A DNA stretch of 64,000 bases from an uncultured Latescibacterota bacterium (GTDB lineage: Bacteria > Latescibacterota > UBA2968), in the NCBI GenBank assembly GCA_951812755.1, contig OX638329.1:2713339-2777338 (forward strand). The letters run 5' to 3'. A program made the position numbers and the translations under genes. Shown one piece after another: positions 4,830-28,404 of this stretch. How positions within the stretch are numbered: position 1 is the stretch's first letter; each line of letters opens with the position of its first letter. The notes beneath the pieces were generated by a model, which did no database searches, had not been told where the DNA came from, and saw only the letters and a program-made list of their open reading frames with translations.

Positions 4830-5350
4830 TACTCGCTCCTTTCCTATTCCAGTGTTGTTCTCGAAATATCGGTGCTTAACCTAATGCCATACTTCCGCTC
4901 TCGCAAGCGGAAAAGGAATCAACTGAACAGGTTTTTCCTTTCGGAATAATGAACGCAATAGCTAAAGTATTTTGAATGGTTGAGTTGGGTGACTGTAATA
5001 ATAGGTCAGTTTTTTTTATTCGATGGAACGCGCGAGGCCATTTTCTGATCTAAGGATACAAGACCGGGGATCGTTTCTGCATGGATGTGGGGTGTCGCTG
5101 TACAGATATAGCCACATTCCAGGGTGTAGCGGAGCGAGTAGTATCGGTCTTTTTATATGTACAAACTATAAAAATTTTAACAATTTATTACAATTTTCAC
5201 GGGAACGAAGTGACCTGCGGATTGTTTAAAATACTGTAGCCGCAAAGTGCGGCAGGTTGATGGTGCTGATCGGATTTTGGTTCCGGCCGGACAAAATGAG
5301 ATCGGTGCTTGAGAGCGGTTCATAGAAGTTCAACAGTGAGGAGCAAGGCC
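4830..5350. other. Divergent intergenic region with hairpins and a candidate ECF-type promoter
   Basis: No gene is supported here. TTCCGCT...AGCGGAA forms a 7-bp hairpin at 4893-4912. GCCGCA-AAG-TGCGGC forms a tight hairpin at 5239-5253, in the leader of the repeat-protein gene. GGAAC at 5202-5206, followed about 17 bases later by GTTTA, resembles a -35/-10 pair of ECF sigma factors; an ECF gene lies downstream at 7697. Surrounding sequence (5140-5200) is AT-rich. Promoter identity is a guess from pattern. Confidence 0.35.
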
Positions 5351-6355
5351 ATGAAAAAGTGGATGACCTATAGTGTTGCGTTGGCACTGACATGTGCCCT
5401 GTGGGGCGGTCAGGACGCGCAGGCGGCAGGACCTGTATTTGTGGATGAAAATGCCGATGGCATTGATGATAATGTGCGAATATCGTATCATCGCGGGCGC
5501 AAAGGTGTTTTGGGACAACGCGGCACGTCTTCGCAGTTGACCAAAGAGCAACGCGCGGAATTGAAAACTCTGGTTGACGGATTAAAAGAATCGGATACGT
5601 CTAAGGAAGATATTCGCGCAGCAGTGAAGGCCAAGCTGGAAGAATGGGGTATTGAATTCCCTGAACGCCCAGCTATTTCGTCCGGGTTGGCAAAGTTGCT
5701 TACTGAGGATCAGAAGACTGAATTGACGACGTTGATTGATGGCTTGAAAGAGTCGGACACGTCGAGGGAAGATATTCGGACGGCGGTGGCTGCGAAATTG
5801 GAAGAGTGGGGTGTTGAACGTCCTGAGCGAGGCCTGGACGCGCTGTTGACCGAGGAGCAGGAAATTGGGCTCAGGGTTCTGATTGAGTGGTTAAGAGCAG
5901 AGGACAAATCCAAAGAAGAAATTCGTGCTGCTGTGAATGACCAGCTTGAAGAATGGGGTATTGAACGCCCCGAGCGAGGTCTGGCAGCCGTGTTGACCGA
6001 TGAGCAGGAGACAGAGCTTAAGACGTTGATTGACGGCTTGAAAGCGTCGGATACGTCTAAGGAGGATATTCGTGCGGCAGTGGATGCTAAGTTGGAAGAG
6101 TGGGGTGTTGAACGTCCTGAGCGTGGTTTGGTAGCCTTGTTGACCGATGAGCAGGAAGCCGCGCTCAAGACGTTGATTGACGGCTTGAAAGAGTTGGATA
6201 TATCCAGGCGAGTCATTCGGGCGGCGGTGGATGAGAAATTGGAGGAATGGGGTGTTGAACGTCCCGATCGCTCGCGAGGAGGGAAGCGTGGGGATGGTCG
6301 GCGAGGTGGGCACCGCGGCAGAGGGCATAAAACACCATCCACAAGCTCGGGATAA
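5351..6355 (+). CDS. Secreted protein with five 49-residue helical repeats
   Basis: A 334-residue exported protein. A signal peptide (MKKWMTYSVALALTCALWG...AQA) is followed by a short acidic segment (DENADGIDDN, calcium-loop-like). Five near-identical helical repeats then start at nucleotides 5537, 5699, 5846, 5993 and 6140. Each runs from LT-x-E/D-Q through a helix to D-I-R-A-A-V and LEEWG-[IV]-E-R-PER; units 2-4 are exactly 147 bases. The C-terminus is basic and Gly/Arg-rich. The LT-x-E-Q opening recalls Spy/CpxP-like periplasmic proteins, but I cannot assign a family. ATG 5351 is preferred over an earlier in-frame codon at 5309 because GAGGAG (5338-5343) precedes it and the signal peptide starts there. 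Confidence 0.8.
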   Translation: MKKWMTYSVALALTCALWGGQDAQAAGPVFVDENADGIDDNVRISYHRGRKGVLGQRGTSSQLTKEQRAELKTLVDGLKESDTSKEDIRAAVKAKLEEWGIEFPERPAISSGLAKLLTEDQKTELTTLIDGLKESDTSREDIRTAVAAKLEEWGVERPERGLDALLTEEQEIGLRVLIEWLRAEDKSKEEIRAAVNDQLEEWGIERPERGLAAVLTDEQETELKTLIDGLKASDTSKEDIRAAVDAKLEEWGVERPERGLVALLTDEQEAALKTLIDGLKELDISRRVIRAAVDEKLEEWGVERPDRSRGGKRGDGRRGGHRGRGHKTPSTSSG

Positions 6356-6415
6356 TTTATCGGTTCCTGGTGGAAGGGTATTTGCCCTTCCACATTTGAT
6401 AAACCATCGCTATAA

Positions 6416-6596
6416 CTGACGTTACGCATCTGCACAATATAATGTGCCTGTCATTCTGAGCGAAGCGCAGCGAAGTCGAAGGAGCGGGGTACAACTGCGT
6501 AGCAGTTCATCTCCTACTAACACAGGTAGAAAAGATGCTTCGGCTCCGTTCCACTCCACTCAGCATGACAAAAACGCCAGACCTGCGTAACATCAG
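6416..6596. mobile_element. 181-bp non-autonomous element, copy 1, with 7-bp target duplication
   Basis: CTGACGTTACGCA at 6416-6428 and TGCGTAACATCAG at 6584-6596 are inverted with one mismatch. The direct repeat GCTATAA flanks the element exactly (6409-6415 and 6597-6603), the mark of transposition. The interior is a GTCATTCTGAGCGAAGC-type sequence and its near complement, giving long-stem potential, with no reading frame. A second copy is at 15640-15792 and a truncated inverted one at 21505. The right duplication supplies bases just before the ribosome binding site of the next gene. Confidence 0.85.
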
Positions 6597-6615: not shown

Positions 6616-7683
6616 ATGAAACGATTATCAATCTTTGTTTGTGTATTGTTCCTGGGGCTGGGAACAGCAGATGCAGATGTGCTTACTGACGTGACTGTGG
6701 GAACGATTTACGATACCAATGTGGATGGGGTCTATGATGGGGCGAGTGCTTTTGTGACGCAACTTTCCGCTTCTGTGATGCGCCCTGTGGAGATGGACGC
6801 TTCATATCTGCGGTTCTTTTTTTCGGGCGATGGGTTTTTATTTGGTCACAATGGCGACCGAACATTTGCGACCAATCGATTGGGCGTGGATTTTGTACGG
6901 GATCTGAACAGTGGTGAGCGCGATAGGGTATTTGCGGGTTTTGCGCTTGCTGCGCGCGCAAATCGCTCCATTTACGATGTGTATGATTACACCGGGCTGA
7001 CGGGATACGTGCAGGGCAAATGGTATAGCGCTGAGAATACAATGAAGCGGGTGGGGTATCAGCTCAACTGGCGGTCGTATCCAAATTTGAATGTGTCGCG
7101 TTATGTGGATCATTACGCATTTTTTCAGATTAACCAGTTTTTGCCCTCGCGTACGACATTGAGGGGTGATCTGGGATTGGGCTATAAGTTGCGCGAGGGG
7201 GCAGAAGGGCAGGTGGTTTTGGGTTTGCAGGTGGCGCAATCTCTGACAGATAATACGGGCTTGCGGGTGCGCTACCAGCGGCGCATCAATTTGCGGGCTG
7301 CGAATGATACGCCCACGCGATTCAATGCACTCATTTACGGCGATGACGATATCTTAAAGGATCGCTACGATTATAGCGGCGATCAAATAACTGCACGGCT
7401 GACCCAGCAATTGCCCTTGCAGGTTCGGATTATTCTGGAAGGTGGATACGAAAAGCAGTCTTATAAAGACGACTTGGCGCGAGATGTCAGTGGCGCGATT
7501 TTGTTAGGGGGCGCGTTGCGTCGGGATGAGTATTCGTTTTTTGATGCGTTTTTGGAGTTGCCCCTAACGCAGCGCGTGACAACGGAGTTTGGATATGGTA
7601 TTTCGCGCAATTTCTCAAATGATGAATTTTATAACTACGACAGGCGACAAAGTGTATCTTTTAATTTGATTGTTGAATTTTAG
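6616..7683 (+). CDS. Outer-membrane beta-barrel protein
   Basis: A 355-residue protein with a signal peptide (MKRLSIFVCVLFLGLGTADA) and a body of alternating aromatic/polar strands. It is rich in Tyr, Arg and Gly and ends in FNLIVEF, with the terminal Phe typical of barrel proteins inserted by BamA. Length and pattern fit a DUF560-like or porin-like barrel; no specific family is evident. I place the start at ATG 6616, six bases after AAGGA; the in-frame ATG at 6610 touches that site. It is 13 bases upstream of the ECF sigma gene, so they probably share a transcript, with the 181-bp element just upstream possibly modifying expression. Confidence 0.75.
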   Translation: MKRLSIFVCVLFLGLGTADADVLTDVTVGTIYDTNVDGVYDGASAFVTQLSASVMRPVEMDASYLRFFFSGDGFLFGHNGDRTFATNRLGVDFVRDLNSGERDRVFAGFALAARANRSIYDVYDYTGLTGYVQGKWYSAENTMKRVGYQLNWRSYPNLNVSRYVDHYAFFQINQFLPSRTTLRGDLGLGYKLREGAEGQVVLGLQVAQSLTDNTGLRVRYQRRINLRAANDTPTRFNALIYGDDDILKDRYDYSGDQITARLTQQLPLQVRIILEGGYEKQSYKDDLARDVSGAILLGGALRRDEYSFFDAFLELPLTQRVTTEFGYGISRNFSNDEFYNYDRRQSVSFNLIVEF

Positions 7684-7696
7684 GCGGAGATTTTCT

Positions 7697-8290
7697 ATGC
7701 TTAATTGGTCAACATGCGACGATAAATTGCTCGTTGGGTATGCTAAGAAGGGGCATGCGAAGGCGTTTTCTGAATTGGTGCGGCGACACCATATGCGGAT
7801 TTTTCATACGGCGTTTGGCATGGTGGGCAATAGGGAAGATGCCGATGATCTGGCACAGCTCGCGTTTATCAAGGCGTTTCAGTCGCTTCACCGGTTTAAA
7901 GGGCAATCGCTGTTTTCCACCTGGTTGTATCGCATCAGCATCAATTGTTGTCTGGATTGGATTAAGTCGCAACAGCGCAAATATGACGTCAAGATGGATG
8001 ATGAATGGTGGTTCAGACAAGCAGACGATGAAGCTCTGTTTGCAGGTACAAAGCGAACGGATTACATGGTTGAACAGGGCGAGTTGCGCGATGTTCTGGC
8101 ACACGCCATGTCGCAGATGCCGCCCATTTTTCGGTCTGTGCTGGTCCTGCGCGAGTTGAACGGGCTGTCGTATCAGGAGATTGCCAATGTTGAAGGGTGT
8201 TCGGTGGGCACTGTAAAATCGCGTCTGTTTCGGGCGCGTGCCCAACTTCGCAAATTGTTGAGGCCGTTTTACAAGGCACTTGTGGCGTAA
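7697..8290 (+). CDS. ECF-type RNA polymerase sigma factor
   Basis: A 197-residue sigma-70 family factor of the extracytoplasmic function group. Region 2 is seen in 'NREDADDLAQLAFIKAF' and 'FSTWLYRISINCCLDW'. Region 4 has the helix-turn-helix LSYQEIANVEGCSVGTVKSR followed by LFRARAQLRKLL. There is no region 3 or N-terminal extension, as expected. The start is ATG 7697 with GGAG at 7685; an earlier in-frame codon overlaps the previous gene. It sits 13 bases after the barrel gene and 22 before the Rieske lipoprotein gene. No recognisable anti-sigma factor is adjacent, so control must be through another gene or a non-standard partner. Confidence 0.92.
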   Translation: MLNWSTCDDKLLVGYAKKGHAKAFSELVRRHHMRIFHTAFGMVGNREDADDLAQLAFIKAFQSLHRFKGQSLFSTWLYRISINCCLDWIKSQQRKYDVKMDDEWWFRQADDEALFAGTKRTDYMVEQGELRDVLAHAMSQMPPIFRSVLVLRELNGLSYQEIANVEGCSVGTVKSRLFRARAQLRKLLRPFYKALVA

Positions 8291-8312: not shown

Positions 8313-8762
8313 GTGGATGAGAAGACGGAAAGAAGGGCGTTTTTGACACAGGCCCTCGCGCTTGTGGGGGGGTGCATGTGCGCCGGATGGATTTCGGGGT
8401 GTGAGAATGATGTGTTGAAGTCATCTGGTGAGAGTGTGCAGTTTGATGTGGGCAGCGCGCCTGCGTTGGCACAGGTGGGAGGGTCTGTGAAACAAGTTTT
8501 TAGCGGTCAAAATGGCGGCGCGCCCGTGATCATTTTTCGCGTTGCTGAAGAAAATTTTGTGGTTTTGAGTTCTGTGTGTACGCATGAGGCGTGCGAGGTG
8601 GATTTGCCAGGGGAACGCGATCCGCAAATCTGGTGTTCATGCCACGGTGCGAGATTTGACAGGACAACAGGGGCGGTTTTGCGCGGTCCAGCTACCGCGC
8701 CTTTGCCGCGATTTGAGAGTACTTATGACAATGAGACACAGACTTTGTCGATTCTGTTTTAA
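8313..8762 (+). CDS. Rieske [2Fe-2S] lipoprotein, twin-arginine type
   Basis: A 149-residue iron-sulfur protein. The N-terminus has a twin-arginine-like ERRAFL motif, a hydrophobic segment and a lipobox ending at Cys30 (ISGC), suggesting folded export and lipid anchoring. Cluster ligands are C89-T-H91 and C108-S-C110-H111. C94 and C110 occupy the disulfide positions of high-potential Rieske proteins. It would transfer electrons at the outer face of the inner membrane or in the periplasm. The start is GTG 8313, with GGAG at 8301. No cytochrome b gene is nearby, so it is not a conventional bc1 component. It is last in the barrel/sigma operon and is followed by a terminator. Confidence 0.9.
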   Translation: MDEKTERRAFLTQALALVGGCMCAGWISGCENDVLKSSGESVQFDVGSAPALAQVGGSVKQVFSGQNGGAPVIIFRVAEENFVVLSSVCTHEACEVDLPGERDPQIWCSCHGARFDRTTGAVLRGPATAPLPRFESTYDNETQTLSILF

Positions 8763-26454: not shown

Positions 26455-28017
26455 ATGACACCACTTCGCATTTTTATTAGCAGCGTGCAGACAGAGTTCG
26501 CACAAGAGCGAGCGGCGTTGCGCGATTATCTGCGCGGAGATCCGTTGATGCGGCGGTTCTTCGAGGTGTTCTTGTTCGAGGAGGTTCCGGCCTCGGATCA
26601 ACGGCCCGATGCGCTTTATCTGGATGAGGTTGAACGATGCGATCTCTATGTGGGATTATTTGGAAGTGACTATGGGACTGAGGACGCAGAAGGTGTATCG
26701 CCTACGGAACGGGAGTTTGACCGCGCGACCACTCTGGGAGTGCATAGTCTGATCTTTGTGAAGGGAACAGAGAACCATGTCCGGCATCCGAAGATGGAGG
26801 CGTTGATCGGTAAGGCGCAGGCGGGGCTAATTCGGAAACGATTCAATACCCAGGCAGAACTGGTAACCGGTCTCTATGCGGCGTTGGTAGAGTACCTGGA
26901 AGTCAAAGAATTGATCCGCTGGGGGCCATTCGATGCGGCACCTTGCGCGAAGGCTGTGTTGGAAGATCTCGATTTCGAGCGAATCATTCGATTCATTCGC
27001 ACTGCACGCAGAGCCAGGCAGTTTCCGTTGACGGAAGATGCATCTCCCGAGGAGTTGTTGGAGCATCTGAAGCTTCTGAATGACGGGCGGTTGACAAATG
27101 CAGCGGTGTTGCTGTTCGGGAAGGCGCCTCAGCGGCATCTCATTTCTTCCGAAGTTAGATGTGCCCACTTCCACGGGACAGAGGTCGCCAAACCGATTCC
27201 GTCCTATCAGGTCTATAAGGGTACGGTGTTCGATCTTGTTGACCAGGCGGTAGATTTCGTGTTGAGCAAGATCAATCGGTCAATAGGCACACGGGTGGAG
27301 AGTGCCCGCGCTCCTCGTACCTATGAAATTCCAGAAGAAGTTGTGACAGAAGCCATTGTCAACGCAGTGGCGCACCGCGACTATACGGACAATGGTAGCG
27401 TGCAGGTCATGCTTTTTGCAGACAGGTTGGAGGTCTGGAATCCTGGCAGGCTACCGCCGCTACTAACACTGGAGAAGTTGCGGGTCGCGCACACGTCGAT
27501 ACCCGGCAATCCTCTGGTGGCAGAATCTATGTACCTTGCGGAATATATCGAACGAATGGGAACTGGAACGCTGGATATGATCCGTCGCTGTGTGAAAGCG
27601 GGTTTGCCCGAACCGGAGTTCACTATTCCTCAGGGATTTGTCACGACGGTTTGGCGAGCAGCATCTGCAGAGCAAGCTGGGGTGCAAGCTGGGGTGCAAG
27701 CTGGGGTGCAAGCTGGGGTGCAAGCTGGGGTGCAAGCTGGGGTGCAAGCTGGGGTGCAAGCTGAATTGTCAGTCAAGGATATTGCCATGCTACAAGCGTG
27801 TGTTCGGGAAGCGGCAACGAGTAGAGAGTTGTGGATAGTCGCGGGATATTCGACCCGAACAAGAAGCTTTGAGCAACAGCTTAGACGGCTATTAGCCGAC
27901 GAGTTACTGGAAATGACTGTCCCTGACAAACCGCGTAGCCCATTACAGAAGTATCGGCTAACGGACAAGGGACGGGTTGCTCTTTCAGGTCCGAAGACAA
28001 GGGATACAGAGGCATGA
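26455..28017 (+). CDS. DUF4062 protein with RecG-like ATPase C-terminal region
   Basis: A 520-residue multidomain protein. Residues about 1-100 are DUF4062 (RIFISSVQTEFAQERAALRDYL, LYVGLFGSDYG), a TIR/NTase-like module often found in defence and NLR-like proteins. The centre and second half resemble the C-terminal HATPase_c_4/RecG-like domain (EEVVTEAIVNAVAHRDYTDNG, DRLEVWNPGRLP, YIERMGTGTLDMI). A low-complexity linker of seven AGVQ units (27672-27755) precedes a C-terminal winged-helix-like region. It follows qatD by 55 bases and overlaps the next remnant by four. It could be a signal-responsive regulator or effector; this is inference from domain combination and position. Confidence 0.8.
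   Translation: MTPLRIFISSVQTEFAQERAALRDYLRGDPLMRRFFEVFLFEEVPASDQRPDALYLDEVERCDLYVGLFGSDYGTEDAEGVSPTEREFDRATTLGVHSLIFVKGTENHVRHPKMEALIGKAQAGLIRKRFNTQAELVTGLYAALVEYLEVKELIRWGPFDAAPCAKAVLEDLDFERIIRFIRTARRARQFPLTEDASPEELLEHLKLLNDGRLTNAAVLLFGKAPQRHLISSEVRCAHFHGTEVAKPIPSYQVYKGTVFDLVDQAVDFVLSKINRSIGTRVESARAPRTYEIPEEVVTEAIVNAVAHRDYTDNGSVQVMLFADRLEVWNPGRLPPLLTLEKLRVAHTSIPGNPLVAESMYLAEYIERMGTGTLDMIRRCVKAGLPEPEFTIPQGFVTTVWRAASAEQAGVQAGVQAGVQAGVQAGVQAGVQAGVQAELSVKDIAMLQACVREAATSRELWIVAGYSTRTRSFEQQLRRLLADELLEMTVPDKPRSPLQKYRLTDKGRVALSGPKTRDTEA
27672..27755 (+). repeat. Seven perfect 12-bp tandem repeats in a coding linker
   Basis: GCAAGCTGGGGT occurs seven times without change, encoding AGVQ units between the ATPase-like domain and the C-terminal winged-helix region. 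Because 12 is a multiple of 3, copy-number change alters linker length without frameshift. Confidence 0.95.
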
Positions 28018-28404
28018 GCGAGAGTCAGAACATCGAATGGAAAGAGACCTGGCGAGACGAATACCTGAAATGGGTCTATGGATTCGCCAACGCTCAGGGC
28101 GGCGACGGTCTGTGGTTGAGGTTCCCGTTCTCCGCTGCGTATCAAGTGCCCGATTCCCTTGCTGGTAGTGCCGCTGCCCCAAAGATTGCCCCAAGAAACT
28201 ACCCAAGAAACTACCCAAGAAACTACCCAAGAACAAATTTTGGCCTTACTCGAAGCCGAGCTTGAGCTAACTCAGCGTATGTTGGCTGAACGTGTTGGCC
28301 TTACGCCGGATGGGGTCAAGTACCACTTGACAAAGCTGCGTGCCGCTGGTGCTATCCGTCATGTCGGATCGACCAAAGCTGGTCGATGGGAGGTGCTGAA
28401 GTGA
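28014..28404 (+). pseudogene. Remnant of an AlbA_2/winged-helix ATP-binding regulator
   Basis: Frame 1 from ATG 28014 gives the typical N-terminus of AlbA-type proteins (SESQNIEWKETWRDEYLKW, GFANAQGG) and then loses similarity near 28104. A second frame, shifted by one, gives an ETTQ repeat linker and a C-terminal winged helix (ERVGLTPDGVKYHLTKLRAAG) ending at 28404. The several hundred residues expected between are absent. This is therefore an internal deletion with frameshift. Three perfect 12-bp repeats (CAAGAAACTACC, 28192-28227) lie at the linker. The start overlaps the DUF4062 stop. Confidence 0.8.

Follow-up and report, generated by a model that had tools for sequence, protein, structure and literature searches.

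Analysis of a 64,000-nt stretch of genomic DNA from an uncultured Latescibacterota bacterium (the window) identified an exported protein of tandem helical repeats, termed REP, which constitutes an unnamed protein family and is encoded downstream of a promoter module shared with genes for outer-membrane proteins. The repeat structure, its conservation, the shared promoter module and the gene linkage were observed directly. The best explanation for these observations, held with a probability of about 0.5, is that REP is a tandem-repeat form of the Spy/CpxP-like periplasmic envelope-stress proteins, because it is accompanied by envelope regulators and outer-membrane proteins and, for three genera, by Spy-type neighbours.

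Architecture of the repeat protein

A sequence-only reading of the window had described the open reading frame at 5351-6355 as an exported protein built of five near-identical 49-residue helical repeats, with a calcium-loop-like N-terminus and a basic tail. The following features were located:

5351..6355, + strand: REP, exported repeat protein of 334 aa (open reading frame and translation; homologues found)
5351..5428, + strand: signal peptide of REP, residues 1-26, MKKWMTYSVALALTCALWGGQDAQAA (by inspection)
5438..5470, + strand: FVDENADGIDD loop, a DxNxDGxxD calcium-binding-like motif (related motif in relatives)
5537..5698, + strand: unit 1, 54 aa (repeat analysis)
5699..5845, + strand: unit 2, 49 aa (repeat analysis)
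5846..5992, + strand: unit 3, 49 aa, the most divergent (repeat analysis)
5993..6139, + strand: unit 4, 49 aa (repeat analysis)
6140..6271, + strand: unit 5, about 44 aa, up to the tail (repeat analysis)
6272..6352, + strand: basic Arg/Gly/His/Lys-rich tail, 27 aa (residue count)

The units start at residues 63, 117, 166, 215 and 264 and are thus spaced by 54, 49, 49 and 49 aa. As the earlier reading had stated, units 2-4 measure exactly 49 aa (147 nt) each and unit 1 carries a 5-residue extension. Its claims of an exported protein, helical repeats, loop, tail, leader hairpin, promoter and ECF gene stood as well, but the near-identity of the five units did not. Over the 38-aa core, pairs of units share 20-32 of 38 residues (53-84%) with unit 3 as the outlier, and the codons that differ between units include both synonymous and nonsynonymous changes. 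The array is not a product of chance, since the best self-match at a period of 49 reached 30/38 residues and exceeded the maximum of 13/38 obtained from shuffled sequences (n=300, periods 40-59 scanned). By simple residue count, the units carry a net charge of -23 and the tail one of +7.

Every unit opens with an LTxxQ motif (five in total), each placed at the start of a helix predicted by AlphaFold2. In the model, which is of modest confidence (mean pLDDT 54.9, pTM 0.29), every unit folds into two helices; within this low-confidence prediction the units form separate hairpins and no Spy cradle is seen. Searches of solved folds with the model (Foldseek, VIA-align) returned no match with E < 0.001 (best Z 5.7, rmsd 13.1 over 84 residues), and Spy, CpxP and CnrX were absent among the fold matches listed, an absence that does not exclude them. 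REP is presumably a periplasmic protein.

Distribution and unit number of the REP family

A profile of two units detected REP at a threshold of 1e-6 in 24 of 64 genomes of the phylum, distributed over 10 of 24 genera, and a search with the single protein at E 0.01 gave matches in 22 of 60 genomes, own genome counted. One record labelled Gemmatimonadota (L037) encodes a REP that shares 83% identity with that of the window over the best segment; the record is probably a mislabelled bin. No publication on REP was found by title or abstract start in the open-licence literature.

Unit number varies while both ends of the protein stay conserved. The copies that could be counted in nine of the 11 same-genus genomes have 3-5 units: five in G000, G001 and G003, four in G009, G006 and G002, and three in G004, G005 and G008. 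The G010 copy shows four units within its readable part and the G007 copy is masked. Elsewhere, two units were counted in G011, four each in G049 and G054, and three in G038. The unit core is kept even in distant members. Likewise, a DxDxDG-like loop, corresponding to DENADGIDD in the window, is present in all 16 family sequences compared and within the first 60 residues of the G010 protein; it is absent from the G054 member (L018).

The REP operon and its counterparts in other genera

REP is followed on the same strand by three genes, with which it probably forms one operon:

6616..7683, + strand: putative outer-membrane beta-barrel protein, 355 aa, C-terminal Phe (orthologue adjoins REP)
7697..8290, + strand: RpoE-like ECF sigma factor, 197 aa, 14 nt after the barrel gene (Sigma70 domains)
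8313..8762, + strand: exported Rieske-type [2Fe-2S] protein, the last gene (PF00355, 4.3e-13)

The ECF gene that the earlier reading had placed after REP is the second gene downstream, with the putative barrel gene first. Its product contains the domains Sigma70_r2 (6.6e-18) and Sigma70_r4_2 (3.5e-17) and matches TIGR02939 at 1.1e-39, under the equivalog cut-off. By inspection, no anti-sigma gene was recognised beside it. The barrel assignment is based on an N-terminus resembling a signal peptide and on a Phe at the C-terminus, which is present in 7/7 aligned relatives; the protein gave no Pfam match above cut-off and its AlphaFold2 model reached a pLDDT of 26. Barrels outside the genus are 24-42% identical to that of the window.

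Several sequence elements lie around these genes. A strong inverted repeat without a T run, GTGGAAGGG...CCCTTCCAC, is found past the REP stop codon (window 6370-6393) and may stop or slow transcription ahead of the barrel gene. The gap between REP and the barrel gene also contains a palindrome-like element from GTCATTCTGAGCG... to ...CTCAGCATGACA (window ~6448-6575), which may be a dispersed repeat because a related palindrome-like copy is located near a TonB-receptor promoter (L080 ~1579-1663). Further along the window, perfect 12-nt tandem repeats occur at 27672-27763 (7.7 copies of GCAAGCTGGGGT) and at 28190-28233 (3.7 copies of CCCAAGAAACTA). An Rfam search of the whole window at gathering scores yielded one tRNA only.

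Within the genus, the barrel orthologue adjoins REP in 10 of 11 loci, the contig of G002 ending first. Nine of the 11 genomes have the ECF orthologue at the REP locus; in G002 the contig stops at REP, and the REP locus of G008 has neither an ECF nor a Rieske gene. The best ECF match of G008 in a genome-wide search (8 genomes, 5 of them of the genus) was 47% identical, comparable to the 46% of a second ECF gene in the other four same-genus genomes searched. By reading, a gene for a dioxygenase-like Tat protein lies between the barrel and ECF genes in G004 and G006 (L044 10472-11275, L046 9995-10798).

Other genera vary this arrangement. G011 encodes an ECF factor, a regulator (by reading), a kinase, REP and the barrel, followed by two LTXXQ-type proteins, one of which is sub-threshold while the other matches Metal_resist (2.3e-16) and LTXXQ (4.3e-9). 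In G012, REP and the barrel precede a Spy-type protein (Metal_resist 2.1e-13, LTXXQ 2.2e-10), and in G013 REP is followed by the barrel. G043 and G025 have, by reading, REP, a DxDxDG-rich protein and the barrel. The intervening protein is exported and carries repeated DxDxDGxxD motifs (L054 9610-10281, L055 8405-9097), one of which the N-terminal loop of REP resembles. By reading, a barrel-like gene follows REP in G049, an efflux-type pair precedes REP and one sub-threshold LTXXQ protein in G054, and REP is divergent from efflux-type genes in G038.

These neighbourhoods bear on the leading alternative to a Spy/CpxP-like role, which we regard as possible but doubtful: REP could be a dedicated partner of the adjoining barrel, acting as a periplasmic plug, tether or adaptor and not as a general chaperone. 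Its acidic repeats would span a distance set by the number of units, with the basic tail touching membrane lipid or lipopolysaccharide. The adjacency of the two genes in the genus and in G011, G012 and G013, their near-adjacency in G025 and G043, the barrel-like gene of G049 and the C-terminal Phe of all aligned barrels are in line with such a partnership, as is a unit number of 3-5 between conserved ends. However, no barrel was seen near REP in the stretches read of G054 and G038, where REP stands beside efflux-type genes, and the paralogue REP2 (see below) has no relative of the barrel nearby within its stretch (L040).

A promoter module shared with outer-membrane protein genes

The sequence-only reading had noted a tight hairpin and a possible ECF-type promoter in the leader of REP, and both proved to be conserved. 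Three elements are distinguished upstream of the gene:

5177..5196, + strand: 10-nt direct repeats TTAACAATTT ATTACAATTT (mostly invariant at 27 aligned module sites)
5202..5229, + strand: ECF/sigma-E-type promoter with -35 GGAAC at 5202-5206, N17 and -10 GTTTAA at 5224-5229 (conserved blocks)
5239..5253, + strand: hairpin GCCGCAAAGTGCGGC, just downstream of the promoter (11-genome alignment)

In 10 of 11 same-genus genomes the block upstream of REP reads TTAACAATTTATTACAATTTTCAyGGGAACGAAGTG...TTGTYTAAAATA with the hairpin next. The hairpin folded in 10 of the 11 genomes, L046 being a case in which another stretch was folded, and in L044 its stem contains two compensatory pair changes (GCTAC/GTAGC). 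It would mark the 5' end of the mRNA. The full module comprises 63 nt, TTWACAATTT-ATTACAATTT-TCATGGGAACGAAGTG...TTGTYTAA, and reads as a sigma-E-type promoter of the form GGAAC-N17/18-GTYTAA. Sigma-E-type ECF promoters in E. coli keep a constant distance between -35 and -10. At the 27 aligned sites the GGAAC and GTYTAA blocks are 17 or 18 nt apart and enclose a variable middle; three sites upstream of dioxygenase genes have the -10 variant GTCTCAA. The two blocks resemble the sigma-E boxes GGAACTTTT and GTCAAA as they are given in an excerpt of PMC1804206. The module promoter would depend on an ECF sigma factor.

A 25-nt pattern of the module, searched with no more than 3 mismatches allowed, gave 27 sites in 10 of the 11 same-genus genomes and none with the reversed pattern as control. 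The genes 3' of these sites fall into few classes, namely REP (10), an exported protein with PD40, Omp85 and Peptidase_MA_2 matches (10), TonB-dependent receptors (4) and a Tat-exported dioxygenase-like protein (3), where Pfam assignment of the Omp85-type, TonB-receptor and dioxygenase-like classes refers to one example each. The Omp85-type target of the own genome is a protein of 1088 aa with matches to the PD40 propeller, Omp85 and Peptidase_MA_2. The dioxygenase-like gene has its own copy of the module elsewhere in G003, G004 and G005. A profile of the module detected at least 31 strong sites (E <= 3.3e-8) in 10 of 11 same-genus genomes, comprising the 27 training sites and four new ones, of which three precede TonB receptors and the fourth lies in G003:C37. 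As the profile was scored on the best 150 of ~1500-2100 first-look candidates per genome, weak sites could escape; the next match had E 9.8e-4 and covered model positions 2-25 of 63 only (L147). At least three of the strong sites fall in the own genome, one each ahead of REP, the Omp85-type gene and a TonB-receptor gene.

Searched by itself in the own genome, GGAAC-N16-18-GTTNAA is not commoner than its reversed control (26+4 versus 12+17 sites). Because this bare promoter pattern occurs at chance level (30 versus 29), specificity and evidential weight were assigned to the full module only. It is less likely that the module is a mobile repeat, as only promoter-like blocks, set apart by a variable spacer, are conserved and the flanks differ before the four gene classes. 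The REP and TonB-receptor sites have a longer flank in common.

G008 has no module, neither by pattern nor by profile among its best 150 candidates. The ECF orthologue, the Rieske gene of the locus, REP2 and the promoter module are all missing together from this genome (L048), as if the circuit had been lost, or never gained, as a unit; G008 is the single case of co-absence of module and ECF gene. The region upstream of its REP gene keeps GGAAC-N17-GTTAA and the hairpin despite the missing ECF orthologue.

The rare, conserved stress-type promoter that REP has in common with outer-membrane protein genes makes it probable that REP contributes to protecting the outer envelope or to sensing its state.

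A second REP gene, a two-component system and a candidate operator

The own genome encodes a paralogue, REP2, of 245 aa with three units and the loop FVDEDGDGIDD, which directly follows genes for an OmpR-type regulator and a HAMP-HisKA kinase. REP2 was found in 10 of 11 same-genus genomes, G008 being the one without it, and the kinase gene adjoins it in eight of these 10; the contigs of G009 and G010 begin at or near REP2. The arrangement resembles Pseudomonas, for which PMC5063474 reports that an LTXXQ gene called cpxP adjoins cpxR and that the CpxR site has the form GTAAA-N4-8-GTAAA. The region upstream of REP in G011 contains TTTAC-N5-TTTAC, the complement of such a site.

The 10-nt direct repeats upstream of the window's promoter may represent a response-regulator operator or an UP element. 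Among 400 Markov controls, 11 attained their three-repeat score of 13/15. The test covered the regions upstream of ten REP genes, of REP2 and of the REP2-linked regulator gene (12 in all) and five other genes of the window; 260 nt were scored, some starts are approximate, and repeats located ~385 nt upstream in G013 fall outside. The score of the region was reached by 3/400 controls for G011, 4/400 for G012, 8/400 for G025 and 11/400 for G000, and the remaining eight of the 12 regions and the five control genes gave no comparable repeat signal.

A broader reading can be drawn from these elements, though it seems somewhat unlikely. REP would found a new periplasmic tandem-hairpin family whose length is tuned by unit number and which acts as a multivalent holdase or tether for outer-membrane barrels, and the promoters of its compact regulon in Latescibacterota would fuse an ECF promoter to a response-regulator operator. 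As the sigma-E-type promoter is fused to the operator in that reading, two envelope-stress pathways would meet at one site.

Less probable still is a role of REP as a sensor accessory that binds a ligand (calcium at DENADGIDD or another metal) and keeps a pathway off, so that the kinase or ECF pathway is released once the ligand or a misfolded protein titrates REP. CnrX and CpxP keep their pathways switched off until titrated in this manner. The position of REP2 directly after a kinase gene, the proximity of REP to an ECF gene, the ECF gene near LTXXQ-type genes elsewhere in the own genome (see below) and the retention of the DxNxDGxxD loop in most relatives agree with this proposal. Against it, no membrane anchor and no anti-sigma gene were recognised in the REP operon by inspection, the loop lies outside the repeats and is dispensed with in the G054 member, and His and Cys are absent from the units of the window's protein (by inspection).

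Relationship of REP to known families

REP has no accepted Pfam or NCBIfam family, and Pfam, NCBIfam, PDB sequence and fold searches gave no clear match to a characterised repeat family, in line with the earlier reading. That reading had named no function for the combination of features; the genomic surroundings, the paralogue and the promoter held in common with other genes now indicate an envelope-stress role of the Spy/CpxP type. DUF6286, RcsD_ABL, DUF1002, PaaX, Band_7 and others, some of which pass family cut-offs, are unrelated families whose scores are sums of weak repeat matches, and were rejected. A PDB sequence search with REP alone gave no match at E up to 10; the 45 matches of the two-unit profile in the same range, among them designed repeats and ribosomal S13, were discarded as helix-composition matches.

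The closest approach to a known family is PF07813 (LTXXQ), which REP matches with 24.1 bits against a cut-off of 24.3, no stretch being significant alone. The G013 member scored 17.3 bits, and REP2 and the G011 and G012 members had no listed match. A profile comparison (hhalign) of REP with three Spy-like neighbours gave 61% probability over 50 columns. Homology to Spy/CpxP/ZraP is therefore suggestive, and REP was not filed as an LTXXQ member, because it falls 0.2 bits short, and comes that near only by summation, because the profile comparison stays at 61%, and because LTxEQ can be a simple helix cap. The motif could have evolved independently as an ordinary helix N-cap.

PF07813 itself is present in 16 of 18 hand-picked genomes and above the cut-off in 15. 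A genome scan at E 0.01 listed one gene of the own genome, which is not REP. The LTXXQ locus of the own genome (L198 3189-5450, C1 ~5740.2-5742.5 kb) consists of an ECF gene and two genes of the LTXXQ/Metal_resist type: the first exceeds the cut-offs and its product has a long FRGRGGPGF-rich tail, and the second stays below them. In G013, by reading, an LTXXQ protein (L199 1470-2579) seems to contain the two-motif domain twice in tandem where Pfam marks one stretch; its gene adjoins an ECF gene and an anti-sigma-looking open reading frame without a Pfam match.

Proposed role of REP

If REP is a Spy/CpxP-like protein, the following course of events can be proposed. A disturbance of the outer membrane or its proteins would act as the trigger, upon which the RpoE-like ECF factor encoded two genes downstream would transcribe REP and a small set of outer-membrane genes, possibly assisted by an OmpR-family response regulator at the upstream direct repeats. 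The exported protein, with its 3-5 acidic two-helix hairpins and basic tail, would then hold unfolded outer-membrane proteins or, alternatively, bind to its partner barrel, and may also feed information back to the sensor system. Such client binding has a precedent in Spy of E. coli, which protects certain outer-membrane proteins according to a section of PMC8546600. That REP is instead a structural surface or matrix protein without a chaperone or sensor role, co-controlled by chance and changing its array size by recombination, is very improbable: tandem arrays of variable copy number would suit it, and calcium-like loops and RG-rich tails are present in many exported proteins, but stress regulators and Spy-type proteins accompany REP in several lineages and even distant members retain the unit core.

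Most of what is known about envelope-stress responses comes from cultured Proteobacteria and a small number of other groups. Here, a small ECF-type regulon could be read directly from the sequence of an uncultured phylum, with a periplasmic repeat protein standing where Spy or CpxP would be expected; what is new is the regulation of REP via a shared promoter module. If REP is a holdase, its unit number offers a natural series for the effect of valency on chaperoning, and the regulon can be examined in a laboratory host by means of the promoter module.

Comparison with known systems

CnrYXH-type ECF systems serve heavy-metal sensing and encode an LTXXQ-like periplasmic protein near an ECF sigma factor. 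REP differs from them in its repeat structure and its lack of a visible membrane anchor; a barrel gene separates it from the ECF gene, and no CnrY-like anti-sigma factor was seen. Designed helical repeats (5cwb, DHR4) gave the best PDB profile matches to REP (2e-05) and likewise consist of two-helix repeats; they are artificial, and the score is a sum of weak stretches that implies no common origin.

The E. coli sigma-E (RpoE) regulon is similar in its GGAAC -35 and GTYTAA-like -10 elements, its RpoE-like ECF factor and its targets, which are outer-membrane proteins and a probable periplasmic helper. In contrast, the regulon described here is very small (at least three strong sites in the own genome by profile), a conserved direct repeat resembling an operator closely precedes the -35 element, and no RseA-type anti-sigma gene was recognised beside the ECF gene of the window. 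The apparent lack of an anti-sigma neighbour agrees with a passage of PMC8103513, which notes that some ECF factors have no obvious one.

The closest likeness is to Spy/CpxP/ZraP (PF07813 LTXXQ, PF13801 Metal_resist), whose members are small, helical and exported, contain LTxxQ motifs and are associated with regulators of the CpxRA or ECF type. Some REP loci adjoin Spy-type genes, and the local Spy-type proteins have RG/H-rich tails like that of REP. Spy carries two LTxxQ motifs, as stated in a portion of PMC4791398. Whereas Spy/CpxP/ZraP consist of one domain with two such motifs, REP falls under the Pfam cut-off, adds a DxNxDG loop and acidic units, and is built of 3-5 tandem hairpins of ~49 aa with one LTxxQ each.
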